Shown piece after piece: positions 12,915 through 19,898 of a stretch of DNA of 35,878 nt. Source of the stretch: Ignavibacteriae bacterium HGW-Ignavibacteriae-3. Lineage in GTDB: Bacteria; Bacteroidota; Ignavibacteria; Ignavibacteriales; Melioribacteraceae. A program made the translations under genes and the position numbers. The first letter of the stretch is position 1; the number at the start of each line of letters is the position of its first letter. The stretch spans positions 1 to 35,878 of the forward strand of contig PGYS01000017.1 in the NCBI GenBank assembly GCA_002839795.1, read 5' to 3'. The notes under the pieces are model-generated. The model worked only from the letters and a program-made list of their open reading frames with translations, had not been told where the DNA came from and did not search any database.

Positions 12915-12936
12915 ATCTTGACTTTATTATCAAGAT
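12915..12936. promoter_or_regulatory. Candidate Rrf2-type operator of the suf operon
   Basis: Perfect inverted repeat ATCTTGA-N8-TCAAGAT overlapping the -35 element and spacer of the sufB promoter. The TTGACT...TCAA core resembles IscR-type sites in layout. An Rrf2 regulator with three conserved-looking cysteines is encoded at the end of this cluster. A single half-site ATCTTGA also appears at 19267-19273, just upstream of that regulator. Confidence 0.6.
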
Positions 12937-12946
12937 AGAATAATTT
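12918..12946 (+). promoter_or_regulatory. Sigma-70-type promoter of the suf operon
   Basis: TTGACT (12918-12923), a 17-base spacer, and TAATTT (12941-12946). Transcription would begin about 12953, 24 bases before the sufB ATG. A bound regulator at 12915-12936 would cover the -35 box. Confidence 0.6.
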
Positions 12947-12976
12947 TGAATCCGCAATAAAAATGAAAGATGAAGA

Positions 12977-14485
12977 ATGAATGAAGTGAAAGAAATCTCA
13001 AAAGAGAATAATTCTAAAGGTATTAAGCCCGTCGAAGAGACCAGTGACGATATGAAAATGCTGGACGATCTTACAAGTTCTGAATATAAATGGGGTTTTG
13101 TTACCGATATCGAATCTGAGACAGCTGCCAAAGGCCTGAATGAAGAAGTTGTAAGAATGATCTCGAAGAAGAAGAATGAACCCGAATGGATGACCGAATG
13201 GCGCTTGAAAGCTTTCCGACATTGGTTAAAGATGGAAGAACCCACCTGGCCTAATGTACATTATCCTAAAATCGATTTTCAAAATATCAGCTACTACTCG
13301 GCGCCCGTTCAAAAACCAAAATTAAATTCACTTGATGAAGTTGATCCGGAATTATTAAAGACATTCGAGAAACTTGGGATCCCGCTTGAAGAACAGAAAC
13401 TTCTTTCCGGAGTTGCAGTTGATGCAGTGTTCGATTCAGTTTCTGTTGCGACTACATTCAAAGCATCATTGAATGAAAAAGGAATAATTTTTTGTTCCGT
13501 CTCCGATGCCGTTAAAGATCATCCGGAACTTGTAAAAAAATATCTCGGATCCGTAGTACCGTATACAGATAATTATTACGCAGCCCTCAATGCTGCTGTA
13601 TTCAGTGACGGTTCATTCGTCTTTATCCCTAAAGGTGTGAGATGCCCTATGGAACTCTCCACATACTTCAGAATCAACTCAATGGATACCGGACAGTTTG
13701 AACGGACTCTCATCATAGCCGAGGAAGAATCCTACGTCAGTTATCTTGAAGGATGTACCGCTCCCATACGCGACAACAATCAATTGCATGCTGCTGTTGT
13801 TGAGCTTGTCGCACTCGACGAGGCCGAAATTAAATATTCAACGGTTCAGAATTGGTACCCCGGAAATAAAGAGGGTAAAGGCGGAATTTATAATTTTGTT
13901 ACAAAGCGCGGCGCGTGCAGAGGAAACCATTCTAAAATTTCCTGGACTCAGGTGGAAACCGGATCAGCAATTACATGGAAATATCCAAGCTGTATTCTGC
14001 AGGGTGATTATTCCGTCGGTGAATTTTATTCCGTAGCAGTTACAAACAATATGCAGCAAGCAGATACCGGAACGAAAATGATCCATTTGGGCAAGCACAC
14101 AAAAAGCACAGTAGTCTCTAAGGGCATTTCAGCCGGCCGAAGCAATAATTCATACCGCGGTCTGATTAAGATCGGAAAGAATGCCGAGGGAGCGAGAAAC
14201 TATACACAGTGCGATTCCATGCTTATGGGGGACAGATGCGGTGCTCATACATTCCCTTATATCGAGGTTGAAAACGAATCATCAAAAGTTGAACATGAAG
14301 CAACCACTTCTAAAATCGGAGAAGACCAGATCTACTATCTGAATCAGCGCGGAATCGGCACTGAAGACGCTGTTAATCTGATAGTCAATGGTTTCTGTAA
14401 GGAAGTTTTTAAGGAATTACCGATGGAGTTTGCCGTCGAGGCACAGAAACTTCTGGCGATAAGTCTGGAAGGTTCTGTTGGTTAA
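12977..14485 (+). CDS. sufB: Fe-S cluster assembly scaffold SufB
   Basis: A 502-residue SufB, of usual length, the main scaffold of the SufBCD complex on which iron-sulfur clusters are built. Landmarks are [10 protein letters not shown], the [15 protein letters not shown] helix, [19 protein letters not shown], the beta-helix core with [33 protein letters not shown], and the C-terminal [22 protein letters not shown] followed by EHEATTSKI; the cysteine in TQCDS corresponds to the conserved cluster-forming Cys of SufB. It is the first gene of the suf run with its own promoter and operator just upstream. ATG 12977 follows GAAAGATGAAGA, a moderate ribosome site. Confidence 0.97.
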
Positions 14486-14563: not shown

Positions 14564-15328
14564 ATGTTATCAATTAAAAATCTGCATGCCAATGTGGAAG
14601 GAAAAGAAATTCTGAAAGGTATTAATCTGGAAATTAAAGCAGGGGAAGTACATGCCATAATGGGACCGAATGGTTCCGGTAAAAGTACTCTTGCGAATGT
14701 GCTGACGGGAAATAAGAGCTACGAAGTAACCGGCGGTGAAGTAGTGTTCGATGGAAAAGATCTTCTTGATCTTGATACAGAAACCCGCGCGCGTGAGGGA
14801 ATGTTTCTTGCTTTCCAGTACCCGGTCGAAATTCCGGGCATTAGCAATGCGACATTTCTAAAGACAGCTTTAAATGAACTAAGAAAGTATAAATCGCTGC
14901 CTGAATTGACACCCAGGGAGTTTCTTGAAAGGATTAAGGAAAAAGCCAATATTCTTGGTCTTGATGAAACTCTCATCAGCCGCTATGTAAATGTCGGATT
15001 CTCCGGAGGAGAGAAGAAACGTAATGAAATATTCCAGATGCTAATGCTCGAACCGAAGTTTGTTCTTCTCGATGAGACCGATTCGGGGCTGGATATCGAT
15101 GCACTAAGAATCGTTTCCGACGGTGTTAATGTTTACAAGAATGAAAAAAATGCATTCCTCGTGATTACTCACTATCAACGGCTTCTAAATTATATTCACC
15201 CTGATTTTGTACATGTCCTTTATAAAGGAAAGATTATTAAATCGGGCGGCAAAGAATTGGCTCTTGAATTGGAAGATAAAGGCTATGATTGGATAAAGAC
15301 TGAAGAAGTAGAAATCGATAAAGCGTAA
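14564..15328 (+). CDS. sufC: Fe-S cluster assembly ATPase SufC
   Basis: A 254-residue ABC-type ATPase of the cytoplasmic SufBCD complex. Walker A is GPNGSGKSTL (near residue 35), the Q-loop FQYPVEIPGISN is SufC-specific, the signature is FSGGEKKRNEIFQM, and Walker B is FVLLDETDSGLDIDAL, with the H-loop in VITHYQRLL. It powers conformational change of SufB-SufD during cluster assembly. GAGGAAA precedes ATG 14564. The stop codon overlaps the possible ATG 15328 of sufD. Confidence 0.97.
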   Translation: MLSIKNLHANVEGKEILKGINLEIKAGEVHAIMGPNGSGKSTLANVLTGNKSYEVTGGEVVFDGKDLLDLDTETRAREGMFLAFQYPVEIPGISNATFLKTALNELRKYKSLPELTPREFLERIKEKANILGLDETLISRYVNVGFSGGEKKRNEIFQMLMLEPKFVLLDETDSGLDIDALRIVSDGVNVYKNEKNAFLVITHYQRLLNYIHPDFVHVLYKGKIIKSGGKELALELEDKGYDWIKTEEVEIDKA

Positions 15329-15339
15329 TGGGAGAGAAA

Positions 15340-16665
15340 ATGACAGGCAAAGAGTTTTATATAGATAATTTCAAAATATTTCAGGAAAAGTTGAACGGAG
15401 AATCTAAATCATTTTTAAATGAAATTCGAAAAGATGCACTTAAAAGTCTATCCGAACTTGAATTTCCTACAAACAAGGTTGAGGATTGGAAATACACGAA
15501 TGTTACTCCGATACTTAAACAGAATTTTGTTCCGGCGGTCAATGCTTCAGTTCCAAAAATAACTGAAAAAGAGATTCAGAGTTATCTGTTTCAGGATTTT
15601 GACTGCCACTTATTAGTTTTTATTAACGGACTCTATTCGGAGGAACTAAGTATAGTTGGACAATTGCCCAAGGGCGCAGTAGCCGGAAGTCTTCGAAATT
15701 TGACAAAAGAAAATCCGGAACTGTTAAGCAAATACTTAAACAAAATTTCCATAACAGATAATGCCTTTAATGCTTTGAATACAGCTTATGCTCTGGATGG
15801 ATTGGTGGTTGTTGTGCCGGACGGAATAATTATAGAGAAACCAATTCAGGTTTTATATCTCAATACCAACGATAAAGAAAATGTACTTTCACTACCCAGA
15901 AATTTAGTTGTTGCGGGAAAGAACTCTCAGGTGAGCATAGTAGCAAATTACCGCGGAGCAGGCGAGAAAATCTACTTCAGTAATATTATTACCGAAGTGT
16001 TTGCCGATGAGAACTCAATTGTTGATCTCTGTAAAATCCAGAATGAAACTGATGATTCATTCCACATCGAAAAAGTACAGGCAATTCAGAAGAAAAACAG
16101 TGTTTTCAACCATTACAATATTACGTTCGGCGGTTCGATTACGCGGAACGACATTAATTCCCGTCTGGATGGAGAAAATATTGAAACCCATTATTACGGT
16201 TTATATATGGTAAACGGAAAGCAGCATGTTGATAATCATACATTTGTAGATCACGCGAAGCCGAACTGCATGAGCAATGAAGTTTATAAGGGAATTCTCG
16301 ACGACAGTTCGCGCGGGGTGTTTAACGGAAAAATAATCGTGCGGCGGGATGCTCAAAAGACCAATGCATATCAGCAGAACGAAACAATATTGTTGTCAAA
16401 TAAAGCGACTATCGACACAAAACCGCAGCTTGAAATCTTTGCCGATGATGTAAAATGTTCTCACGGCGCGACCGTCGGTCATCTGGACGAAACTTCCGAA
16501 TTTTACATCCGATCGCGCGGAGTGCCCCAGGAGCTCGCAAAATCCATGCTGATCAGAGCTTTTGCAAACGATGTAATTGAGACGGTAAAAATTGATCCGC
16601 TTAAAGAACAGATTAATCATATGATATTTGAACATCTGCATCGTGTGGAAATTAAAACTGAATAA
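15340..16665 (+). CDS. sufD: Fe-S cluster assembly protein SufD
   Basis: A 441-residue SufD, partner of SufB in the SufBC2D complex. Family marks are FPTNKVEDWKYTNVTPIL near the N-terminus and, near the C-terminus, KPQLEIFADDVKCSHGATVGHLDE and FYIRSRGVPQELAKSMLIRAFANDVIE, including the conserved His of CSHGATVG. ATG 15340 is chosen because GGAGAG at 15331-15336 is well placed for it; an in-frame ATG at 15328 that overlaps the sufC stop would add four residues but has no ribosome site. The coupling to sufC is evident either way. Confidence 0.95.
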   Translation: MTGKEFYIDNFKIFQEKLNGESKSFLNEIRKDALKSLSELEFPTNKVEDWKYTNVTPILKQNFVPAVNASVPKITEKEIQSYLFQDFDCHLLVFINGLYSEELSIVGQLPKGAVAGSLRNLTKENPELLSKYLNKISITDNAFNALNTAYALDGLVVVVPDGIIIEKPIQVLYLNTNDKENVLSLPRNLVVAGKNSQVSIVANYRGAGEKIYFSNIITEVFADENSIVDLCKIQNETDDSFHIEKVQAIQKKNSVFNHYNITFGGSITRNDINSRLDGENIETHYYGLYMVNGKQHVDNHTFVDHAKPNCMSNEVYKGILDDSSRGVFNGKIIVRRDAQKTNAYQQNETILLSNKATIDTKPQLEIFADDVKCSHGATVGHLDETSEFYIRSRGVPQELAKSMLIRAFANDVIETVKIDPLKEQINHMIFEHLHRVEIKTE

Positions 16666-16747: not shown

Positions 16748-17998
16748 GTGATAACTACAATCCCTGAAGTCAAAAGAAAATTTGATGTAGAGGCAGTAAG
16801 AAACGATTTTCCGATTTTGAAACGTCTGGTAAACGGAAAGCCTCTTGTCTATCTCGATAACGCGGCGACTTCTCAGAAACCGCAGTCAGTTATTGATGCC
16901 ATTACGCAATACTATACTTTTGATAATGCCAATATTCACAGAGGATTATATTTCCTTAGCGAACTTGCCACCGAACAGTACGAAACCGCGCGTCTGAAGG
17001 TAAAAGAATTGATTAACGCCATGAGCGTTTCTGAAATTGTACTGGTGCGTGGAGCTACTGAAGCAATTAATCTTGTTGCATCGTCATTGTGCAGAGCAAA
17101 ACATTTTAAAGACGGCGATGAAGTTTTGATTTCGCACATGGAACATCATTCTAATATCGTTCCGTGGCAGTTAATGAGCGGAAGGAAAAAGATCAATTTG
17201 AAAGTCATTCCAATCACCGATGCCGGTGAGCTGGACATGGAAGCATTTGAAAAAATGTTGAACGAGAAGACAAAACTTGTTTCGGTCGTTCATATTTCCA
17301 ATTCGCTCGGAACGGTTAATCCTGTGAAAAAAATAATTGATATTGCACATTCAAGAGGCATTCCGGTTCTGCTTGACGGCGCCCAGGCAATTCCTCATTA
17401 CAAAATTGATGTGCAGGAGCTTGATGCGGATTTCTATGTATTCTCAGGGCACAAGGTTTTCGGTCCAACGGGGATTGGAGTTCTTTACGGCAAAACCGAG
17501 TATCTGGAAATGATGCCTCCGTATCAGGGCGGCGGCGATATGATTCGTACGGTGACTTTTGAAAAAACCACCTATGATGATATACCCAGAAAATTTGAAG
17601 CAGGAACTCCCAACATTGCCGGCGGAATCGGATTAGGCGCAGCGATCGATTACCTGAATCAGTTTGACCGTACGGAGATTATTAATCACGAAAATCATCT
17701 TCTTAAATACGGAACTGAACAGCTTTTGCAGATCCCTGGTCTCCGCATAATAGGAACCGCAAAGGAGAAGGCGTCAGTTATATCATTCGTTATCGAAGGT
17801 ATTCATCCGTATGACATCGGAACTATAATAGATACGGATGGAATTGCTATACGAACGGGACATCATTGTACTCAGCCCATAATGGACCGTTATAAAGTAC
17901 CCGCCACGGCAAGAGCATCGTTTGCGTTCTACAATACTGTTGAGGAAATCGATACACTCGTTGCGGGAATTCGTAAAGTAAAAAAGATGTTTGCTTAA
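16748..17998 (+). CDS. sufS: Cysteine desulfurase SufS
   Basis: A 416-residue type II (SufS/CsdA) cysteine desulfurase that takes sulfur from cysteine, leaving alanine, for cluster assembly. Motifs are [12 protein letters not shown] near residue 35, [11 protein letters not shown], the PLP-binding lysine in [17 protein letters not shown], and the active-site cysteine in [12 protein letters not shown]. The start is GTG 16748, with AAGGA at 16737-16741; the next in-frame methionines fall after conserved sequence. No SufE or SufU partner is encoded in the window. It is separated from sufD by a repeat-bearing 82-base gap. Confidence 0.96.
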
Positions 17999-18140: not shown

Positions 18141-18455
18141 ATGGTTGATAGAGAAAAATTAGAGCAAGCCGTTATATCGGTTCTAAAGACTTGTTTCGAT
18201 CCGGAGATTCCTGTTGATATTTGGGAGTTAGGATTGATTTACGGAATTAAAATCGATGAAGGTTCTAATGTGTATATTAAAATGACACTTACCTCGCCGG
18301 CTTGTCCGGTTGCGGGAAGTCTCCCCGGCGATGTTAAGGATAAAGTTAAAAGTATTAAAGAAGTGAAAGATGTGTATGTGGACCTCGTCTGGGATCCGCC
18401 GTGGAATATGGATAAAATGACTGAAGAAGCAAAATTACAATTAGGGTTTTTATAA
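18141..18455 (+). CDS. sufT: SufT / MIP18-family (DUF59) Fe-S assembly protein
   Basis: A 104-residue DUF59 protein. Hallmarks are TCFDPEIPVDIWELGLIYGI, the conserved cysteine in MTLTSPACPVAG, and DLVWDPPWNMDKMTEEAKLQLG at the C-terminus. DUF59 proteins of suf operons help deliver iron-sulfur clusters to target enzymes. Length is standard. It lies between two copies of the palindromic repeat, still in the orientation of the suf genes. No strong Shine-Dalgarno sequence precedes ATG 18141, though GGTAGTG is near. Confidence 0.92.
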   Translation: MVDREKLEQAVISVLKTCFDPEIPVDIWELGLIYGIKIDEGSNVYIKMTLTSPACPVAGSLPGDVKDKVKSIKEVKDVYVDLVWDPPWNMDKMTEEAKLQLGFL

Positions 18456-18573: not shown

Positions 18574-19110
18574 ATGTTCAACATAAATACAAGTGCGCCA
18601 ATTTACGATCCTGAATCGGTTCAGCCTATGCGCGACGAACTTATCTTTGTAGGATTTGAAGAAGCAACGACTCCCCAAAAAGTTGATGATCTTTTATCAC
18701 CCAATGATGATAAAACGGTTTTTGTGATGATAAATTCAGTTTGCGGATGCGCCGCCGGCAGCGCGCGTCCCGCCGCGGCTTTATCTCTTCAGAATAATAT
18801 TGTGCCGGATAGACTGGTTACTGTCTTTGCAGGTCAGGACCGCGAAGCCGTTGATCATTTAAGAAAAAAATATTTGGGCAGCGTTCCTCCTTCTTCTCCA
18901 TTTATGGCTTTATTTAAAAACGGGGAGCCGGTTTTCGCTCTTCCTCGCCATCATATTGAAGGTAGAAATGCGCAGGAGATTGCTGAAGATCTCAAGAATA
19001 TTTTTAATCAGCAGTGCAAAGCAAAAGGACCATCAATTTCTCCTGAAAAATATAAGGAATTGGTTCATGCAGTAGCTTGCGGTTCAAAAATACCATTGAA
19101 TAAAAATTAA
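18574..19110 (+). CDS. Bacilliredoxin-family (BrxA/BrxB) protein with C-terminal extension
   Basis: A 178-residue YphP/YqiW-type protein. The redox motif Cys57-Gly-Cys59 in MINSVCGCAAGSARPAA is the bacilliredoxin signature, and the fold continues with VTVFAGQDREAVDHLRKKY, PPSSPFMALF and EPVFALPRHHIEGR. Family members in Bacillus are about 145 residues and remove bacillithiol from proteins. Here about 33 more residues follow, holding Cys148 and Cys169 in QQCKAKGP and HAVACGSK. Its place in the suf cluster suggests protection of thiols during cluster assembly or a link to low-molecular-weight thiols, an inference. AAAGGA precedes ATG 18574. Confidence 0.88.
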   Translation: MFNINTSAPIYDPESVQPMRDELIFVGFEEATTPQKVDDLLSPNDDKTVFVMINSVCGCAAGSARPAAALSLQNNIVPDRLVTVFAGQDREAVDHLRKKYLGSVPPSSPFMALFKNGEPVFALPRHHIEGRNAQEIAEDLKNIFNQQCKAKGPSISPEKYKELVHAVACGSKIPLNKN

Positions 19111-19136
19111 TTAAATAGAATACAGAATGAAGTGGT

Positions 19137-19233
19137 TGTCATTTCGATCCCGCCATCGGCGGGAGAAAAATCTTGCACTACAATAGATTTCCCGGTCGTC
19201 ATTCGACTGGCTCATGACACTCTAGAAATGACA
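19137..19233. repeat. TGTCATT...TGACA palindromic repeat, copy 3
   Basis: A 97-base element opening TGTCATTTCGATCC and ending AGAAATGACA. It contains a perfect CCCGCC-ATC-GGCGGG hairpin. It fills much of the bacilliredoxin-rrf2 gap. Confidence 0.7.
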
Positions 19234-19286
19234 CATGCTTATATCAAATTGTTTCTAATAATTAGGATCTTGAGGTCAGGCAGAAA

Positions 19287-19772
19287 ATGAAATTCAGTGC
19301 ACAGGAAGAATACGGCTTAAGATGTCTGCTGCGTATCGCAAAATTTTACGCTGTTGAAAAATCTTTGACCATTCCGGAAATCAGCAGGGCTGAGGGAATC
19401 AGCGAGCATAATGCCGGAAAAATTCTGCGGGTCCTTCGTATCGGCGAATTTCTTGAAAGCTCGCGCGGACAGATCGGCGGCTATACACTCACGCGTCCCC
19501 CGGAGGAAATTTTAGTCGGTGATGTTCTAACTGTACTCGGCGGAAGATTATTTGATGATGAATTCTGCAATACTCACACCGGGGCAATGGACATCTGCAC
19601 TAATTCGATTGATTGTTCTGTCCGCTCACTCTGGAAGCAGATCCAGGAATCTGTGGATTCAGTTCTAGCCAATATGACGCTGAAAGATCTGATGGGAAAA
19701 GAAAACTATTTTTTCGGCGGATTCAGCGGCGGTTCAAAATCAGAAAATGAACTGAAAGAAATTGAATCTTAG
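19287..19772 (+). CDS. Rrf2-family Fe-S-type transcriptional regulator
   Basis: A 161-residue Rrf2 protein. The N-terminal winged-helix domain shows KFSAQEEYGLRCLLRIA, TIPEISRAEGISEHNAGKILRVL and the wing RGQIGGYTLTRPPEEI, and the dimer helix follows. Three cysteines, Cys94, Cys104 and Cys110 (spaced Cx9Cx5C), lie where IscR-type proteins hold a 2Fe-2S cluster (Cx5Cx5C in IscR), so it may sense cluster status. Located at the end of the suf run, it is the natural candidate for the operator at 12915-12936. AGGTCAGG precedes ATG 19287. Whether it is in the sufB transcript is unknown, since repeats fill the gap. Confidence 0.9.
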   Translation: MKFSAQEEYGLRCLLRIAKFYAVEKSLTIPEISRAEGISEHNAGKILRVLRIGEFLESSRGQIGGYTLTRPPEEILVGDVLTVLGGRLFDDEFCNTHTGAMDICTNSIDCSVRSLWKQIQESVDSVLANMTLKDLMGKENYFFGGFSGGSKSENELKEIES

Positions 19773-19815: not shown

Positions 19816-19898
19816 TGTCATTTCGATGGAGTCCATATAGTTTTCATCGGGACGATTTAGAATTCTTAATAAAATGTCTCTCTACGTTCAACATGACA
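19816..19898. repeat. TGTCATT...TGACA palindromic repeat, copy 4
   Basis: An 83-base element opening TGTCATTTCGATGGA and ending CATGACA, the most diverged of the four. It lies in the 282-base gap between rrf2 and the lipoprotein. The rest of that gap (19919-19999) has partial inverted ATAACGGCTATT / ATTACCGGTTAT sequences, perhaps another repeat, and no recognisable promoter. Confidence 0.6.

Follow-up and report, generated by a model that had tools for sequence, protein, structure and literature searches.

The suf operon in the window, by which we mean the whole 35,878-nucleotide stretch of DNA that was analysed, begins with sufB and ends with a gene for an Rrf2 protein, and a conserved 22-bp sequence overlaps the promoter in front of sufB. 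We propose, with a probability of roughly four in five, that this sequence is an operator and that the product of the last gene, a RisR-like Rrf2 repressor, binds it in its Fe-S cluster form and controls the sufB promoter. The kind of regulator is already known and the mechanism described below is likely, judged from sequence comparisons; what is new is the operator, its wide conservation together with a switch of half-site, and the prediction of a fourth ligand for the cluster.

A predicted operator in the sufB promoter

A preliminary description of this DNA had pointed to a perfect inverted repeat, ATCTTGA-N8-TCAAGAT, lying across the -35 element and spacer of a promoter TTGACT-N17-TAATTT some 30-odd bases before sufB, and to an Rrf2 protein with three candidate cluster cysteines (CX9CX5C) that closes the suf cluster. 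The sequence between 12915 and 12946, the position of rrf2 as the last gene of the operon and the residues C94, C104 and C110 of its product confirm these observations. The repeat, ATCTTGACTTTATTATCAAGAT, occupies positions 12915-12936; TTGACT (12918-12923) is followed by a 17-base spacer and by TAATTT (12941-12946), and the ATG of sufB at 12977 lies 30 bases past TAATTT and 40 past the repeat. The -10 region fits TAnnTTTG, the sigma-A -7 consensus in flavobacteria (PMC9723704). The features of the region are as follows.

12915..12936, + strand: predicted 22-bp operator, ATCTTGAC-TTTATT-ATCAAGAT (sequence and conservation)
12918..12923, + strand: -35 element TTGACT, within the left half-site (sequence; conservation)
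12941..12948, + strand: -10/-7 element TAATTTTG (conserved offset after the operator; match to the flavobacterial consensus)
12977..14485, + strand: sufB (TIGR01980 and NF008773 above cut-off)
14564..15328, + strand: sufC (TIGR01978 above cut-off)
15328..16665, + strand: sufD (TIGR01981 above cut-off)
16748..17998, + strand: sufS, GTG start in the ORF list (TIGR01979 above cut-off)
18141..18455, + strand: SUF-associated protein with FeS_assembly_P domain (PF01883 above cut-off; TIGR02945 139 bits, slightly below the cut-off of 143.4)
18574..19110, + strand: bacilliredoxin, BrxA/BrxB family (TIGR04191 above cut-off)
19287..19772, + strand: rrf2, RisR-like regulator with E8, R12, C94, C104 and C110 (PF02082; residue conservation)

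By itself the symmetry of the repeat is weak evidence, because the window contains 8 perfect 7-8-7 inverted repeats, and we rejected it as a stand-alone argument. When up to three mismatches were allowed, 6 matches were found in the window compared with 4.11 expected, and 26 of 100 shuffled sequences reached 6; only the exact copy therefore stands out. A candidate second operator before rrf2, at 19267, has 3 mismatches and was discarded as falling within chance. The weight of the operator reading thus comes from conservation in relatives and not from symmetry.

The gene order of the window is sufB-sufC-sufD-sufS-SUF-associated gene-bacilliredoxin-rrf2, and nearly every relative locus of sufficient length shares it around rrf2. 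In the window 176 bp (19111-19286) separate the bacilliredoxin gene from rrf2, so that an internal promoter before rrf2 is possible. This gap was seen by eye to hold repeat-like sequence (GTCATTTCGAT...), which is echoed past rrf2 near 19816.

Conservation of the operator in the class

The Rrf2 protein was used to search 245 genomes of the class, which gave 91 matches at E <= 1.0e-29, the window's own included; the nearest named relatives of the protein are metagenome-assembled genomes called Bacteroidetes bacterium, Melioribacter and Stygiobacter, which places the window in the Ignavibacteria, probably in the Melioribacteraceae. Apart from the window there were 90 matches, and we examined the neighborhoods of 80 of them, leaving out nine of one family (f4) and one partial match. 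With the window this makes 81 loci. In 8 of these sufB, or at least its start, lay beyond the contig, and they were set aside, leaving 73 readable. The pattern ATCTTGAC-N10-AGAT, with 12 fixed bases, is present upstream of sufB in complete form in 67 of these, with one mismatch in five and with two in one. The claim that relatives in the Ignavibacteria would keep the repeat upstream of sufB thus held, at no more than one mismatch, in 72 of the 73 loci with an orthologous rrf2 at the end of the suf operon. A set of named loci, which partly overlaps these 73, gave a similar picture: 60 of 80 had a readable sufB start, and 53 of the 60 showed no mismatch, five showed one and two showed two, so that 58 of 60 fall at or below one mismatch. 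A script set the starts of sufB; at a few loci (e.g. L055, L057, L067, L102, L113) the operator lies at or just inside the start, which was probably placed too far upstream.

As a control, sufB was located in 63 of the 71 class genomes without a close orthologue, and 50 of these were scanned over a slightly longer stretch. None had a site with at most one mismatch, one had two mismatches and 49 had three or more. The one scanned genome of family f4 that lacks the orthologue (L309) likewise shows no operator. Operator and orthologue are both distributed by lineage, so that their co-occurrence is not independent from genome to genome. In 10 of the 50 (L204, L212, L214, L216, L223, L224, L225, L227, L299 and L306) a different Rrf2 gene, whose product is 23-32% identical, lies near sufB, possibly a second, independent recruitment to suf. 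On a contig of a metagenome-assembled genome named Terriglobia (L196), the suf operon and the orthologue occur together with the operator ATCTTGACACTTTGGTATAGAT, as a result of either transfer or misbinning.

Alignment of 72 sites reveals how this conservation is distributed. The left half is ATCTTGAC in 68 of them, with TTGA in all 72 and the following C in 97%. The right half occurs in three types, TCCAGAT (28), TCAAGAT or TCAAGAA (11) and TA(C/T/A)AGAT (33). The TA of a TAnnTTTG-like box is found at a fixed offset after the operator in 66 of the 72, and TT at bases 5-6 of this box in 51. The left half may be the more constant one because it also serves as the -35 element, and this bears on a simpler account, in which the block is merely a strong promoter (TTGAC plus TAnnTTTG) with incidental symmetry, while the rrf2 product acts elsewhere. 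That the more constant half is the one holding the -35 box would fit such an account, as would the frequency of perfect 7-8-7 repeats noted above. However, T16 and the AGA at positions 19-21, which belong to the promoter spacer, are present in all 72 aligned sites, the block is absent from the sufB regions of the 50 genomes without the orthologue, and in 29 loci of another class the two half-sites have changed jointly. We therefore consider a promoter without an operator to be very unlikely, and take the sequence to be, very probably, where a cluster-sensing repressor binds.

Number of sites per genome

In the whole genome the exact pair of arms occurs solely at the sufB site, and the only one-mismatch copy, at C148:5025, falls within an ORF. 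Among 57 genomes of the family, 54 have a match to the 22-bp pattern with no more than one mismatch, and 40 have an exact one, at one place per genome except for one genome with two places; SufB adjoins the site in 25 of the 29 loci taken from this search (L263-L291). A pattern one base shorter, used as a spacing control, gave scattered matches in 27 of the 57 genomes and, among the matches listed, none coincides with a place of the 22-bp pattern. Since the exact operator is single in the genome, the regulator looks local and dedicated to suf. When two mismatches were allowed over the 14 arm bases, the window's genome yielded 42 places compared with 13 for the reversed pattern, and there may be weak extra targets beyond sufB.

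The regulator protein

The product of rrf2 belongs to the Rrf2 superfamily, with scores of 94.2 bits for PF02082 (threshold 30) and 88.2 for TIGR00738 (threshold 73.3). Its score for IscR is 57.5 bits against a cut-off of 207.55 (TIGR02010), and its cysteines are spaced CX9CX5C and not CX5CX5C. It also falls below the NCBIfam equivalog cut-offs for NsrR (40.6/182), RirA (47/193), CymR (72.8/195) and the Xanthomonas-type suf regulator (57.4/110.65 bits). The protein has C13 in addition to C94, C104 and C110. All 81 near orthologues possess the three cysteines, with spacings X9/X5 in 79 and X10/X5 in 2, and C13 is common (68/81) without being invariant. Over a set of 118 orthologues, E8, R12, C104 and C110 are invariant, C94 is present in 116 and E7 in 107. 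Two proteins from a farther class (L357, L358) are without C94, yet keep C104, C110, E8 and R12.

The conservation of E8 and R12 acquires meaning from a profile alignment, in which they fall on Asp8 and Arg12 of the Streptomyces coelicolor NsrR, with the N-terminal helix ungapped. The cluster of NsrR takes its fourth ligand, Asp8, from the partner subunit, and a salt bridge between Arg12 and this Asp8 provides a connection to the reading helix; a review calls the fourth ligand of RisR unknown and supposes a non-protein one (PMC11138216). Glu8 is accordingly a candidate fourth ligand, suggested by the alignment, and an alternative to the non-protein ligand supposed for RisR.

Two further explanations concern the identity of the regulator and its signal. 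The genome holds three Rrf2 genes, and the products of the other two also have cysteines near their C-termini, so that one of them might bind the operator instead. The paralogue on C38 has E8 and R12 and that on C130 has E8 and Q12; because both share E8 and one also R12, these residues do not single out the suf-linked group. Both paralogues, however, are located on other contigs, and the operator goes with the suf-linked orthologue, both switching type at one branch when the regulators are placed on a tree, which makes binding by a paralogue extremely unlikely. The Rrf2 gene on C130 (L322) is near an ORF that by eye reads like a quinol nitric oxide reductase, and its product may for this reason be an NsrR-like sensor.

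Alternatively, the cysteines of the suf-linked protein might sense something other than a cluster, for instance thiol redox state through bacillithiol and bacilliredoxin. Rrf2 proteins are known to sense several signals (PMC9973013), C13 is widespread as noted above, and in the window, as in many related suf operons, the gene that follows the SUF-associated gene and precedes rrf2 codes for a bacilliredoxin (YphP/YqiW). The cysteine spacing, however, is that of RisR, the predicted target is the cluster-assembly operon itself, and E8 and R12 correspond to cluster-site residues of NsrR. Further, in family f10 no bacilliredoxin match was found in the operon at the 12 loci examined, yet the regulator is kept at all 12 and the operator at all 11 that were readable. 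A thiol signal is thus unlikely, and we favor cluster sensing. The bacilliredoxin gene may point to a connection between SUF and bacillithiol-type redox control.

A switch of half-site outside the class

Outside the class, orthologues at E <= 1e-25 were found in 7 of 148 genomes drawn from the phylum. In two families of another class, which we guess to be Bacteroidia, the orthologue is scattered: 13 of 61 genomes have it in one family and 18 of 79 in the other. A predicted operator was obtained from 33 of 37 non-class loci. Four of these sites resemble ATTTTGA(C/T)-N6-GTAYAGAT and 29 resemble RTTTATAC-N6-GTATAAAY; in the latter, from another class, both half-sites have changed together, RTAC-N6-GTAY replacing TTGAC. 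No site was found at one orthologue locus with a readable sufB (L338), and three loci (L336, L343, L359) were without a usable sufB start. These sites were chosen as the best candidates with an AC-N6-GT core, and on that basis 32 of 33 have at least five of eight paired positions plus the full core, compared with 23 of 874 control stretches from the same loci. The offset to the promoter is looser than in the class. In one family, a form of the site with a T6 spacer is present in 8 of 13 genomes with the regulator gene and in 0 of 48 without it. Upstream of sufB in three loci (L340, L341, L344) there are two tandem operator-like sites, 24 bp apart.

A tree of 106 regulators, which are short proteins and leave 45 of 106 inner branches open, requires a single change for the switch of the left half-site (SH-aLRT 100), and operator and regulator type change on one shared branch. 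Position 42 of the protein is N or T in 74 of 77 regulators with TTGAC-type sites and Y in the other 3, and it is Y or H in 29 of 29 with RTAC-type sites. Since this difference falls on one branch only, its effect is confounded with that of descent, and the two site types are split as well as by position 42, or better, by residues 47, 63, 121, 87 and 28. We also sought residues of the reading helix tied to the type of the right half-site (GTA versus TC), which changes five times on the tree, and found no clear link.

A model for control of the suf operon

In the model that we favor, a dimer of the RisR-like repressor, loaded with an Fe-S cluster, would sit on the operator at 12915-12936. Because the bound repressor would cover the -35 box and the spacer, the sufB promoter would be closed to RNA polymerase. 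When clusters are scarce, as during iron shortage or in the presence of oxidants, the apo-protein would leave and the operon would be transcribed. The rrf2 gene is probably on the same transcript as the suf genes, and a negative feedback loop would thereby be closed. The cluster would probably be bound by three cysteines of one subunit (Cys94, Cys104 and Cys110) together with Glu8 of its partner, and Arg12 would relay the state of the cluster to the helix that reads the DNA, much as the pair Asp8 and Arg12 does in the Streptomyces NsrR. Of the local cluster-sensing repressor that the preliminary description had suggested, a local regulator of the Rrf2 type at sufB is upheld by conservation and the single exact site; DNA binding and the sensing of clusters are what we infer.

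A more general proposal, which is tentative and against which the odds lie somewhat, is that RisR-type sensors hold a [4Fe-4S] cluster on three cysteines and the partner's Glu8, wired by Arg12 to the reading helix, and that in the Bacteroidota the N6 spacing stayed fixed through a single change of half-site, TTGAC giving way to RTAC, for which residue 42 of the reading helix (Asn to Tyr) is a candidate specificity switch. For control of the SUF operon in the Ignavibacteria and part of the rest of the phylum, the analysis supplies a DNA site, the layout of its promoter and the set of genes. Two questions become directly testable, namely which residue serves RisR-type repressors as fourth cluster ligand and in what manner an Rrf2 regulator changes its half-site yet keeps its spacing. 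If the proposed role of Glu8 is true, it answers the open question of the fourth ligand of RisR.

Comparison with known systems

A literature search, judged by title and abstract among the matches listed, brought up no paper on such a suf regulator in Ignavibacteria or Bacteroidetes, the RisR paper being the one exception. RisR of Myxococcus xanthus (MXAN_1152, group IS6, described in 2023) carries out cluster-dependent repression of suf and isc; it has Cys92, Cys102 and Cys108, its spectrum suggests a [4Fe-4S] cluster, its footprints of about 30 bp extend over the -35 and -10 of suf at a site TTGAC-N7-GTCC, and the IS6 group includes Chlorobi (PMC9973013). The window protein shares with RisR the CX9CX5C spacing, a gene beside suf genes, the IS6 group being one whose genes adjoin suf or isc genes, and a palindrome with a TTGAC half-site that overlaps the suf -35 in AT-rich surroundings. 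The two differ in the site, which is TTGAC-N7-GTCC for RisR and TTGAC-N6 in the window and its relatives; GAC-N7-GTC is a feature of the M. xanthus protein and not a known hallmark of IS6. They differ also in gene position, upstream of suf for RisR and last in the operon here, and in scope, since RisR controls isc as well, whereas the exact copy of the window's operator is single in its genome.

IscR of Escherichia coli has CX5CX5C and recognizes a type 1 site with GAC-N7-GTC spacing. The likeness to it comprises the Rrf2 family, control (here predicted) of Fe-S assembly genes and a GAC-type half-site, and the difference lies in CX9CX5C and N6 in place of CX5CX5C and N7. The cysteine spacing, called unusual in the preliminary description, is so relative to IscR; it is not a new one, because RisR has it. 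The S. coelicolor NsrR (5n07) resembles the window protein in its three cysteines, a carboxylate at position 8 (Asp in NsrR, Glu here) and Arg12, and differs in its CX5CX5C spacing (C93, C99, C105), its NO signal and its 23-bp site. As a whole, these comparisons, which rest on published features of RisR and not on descent, make "RisR-like", with an N6 site, the most fitting description of the window's regulator.
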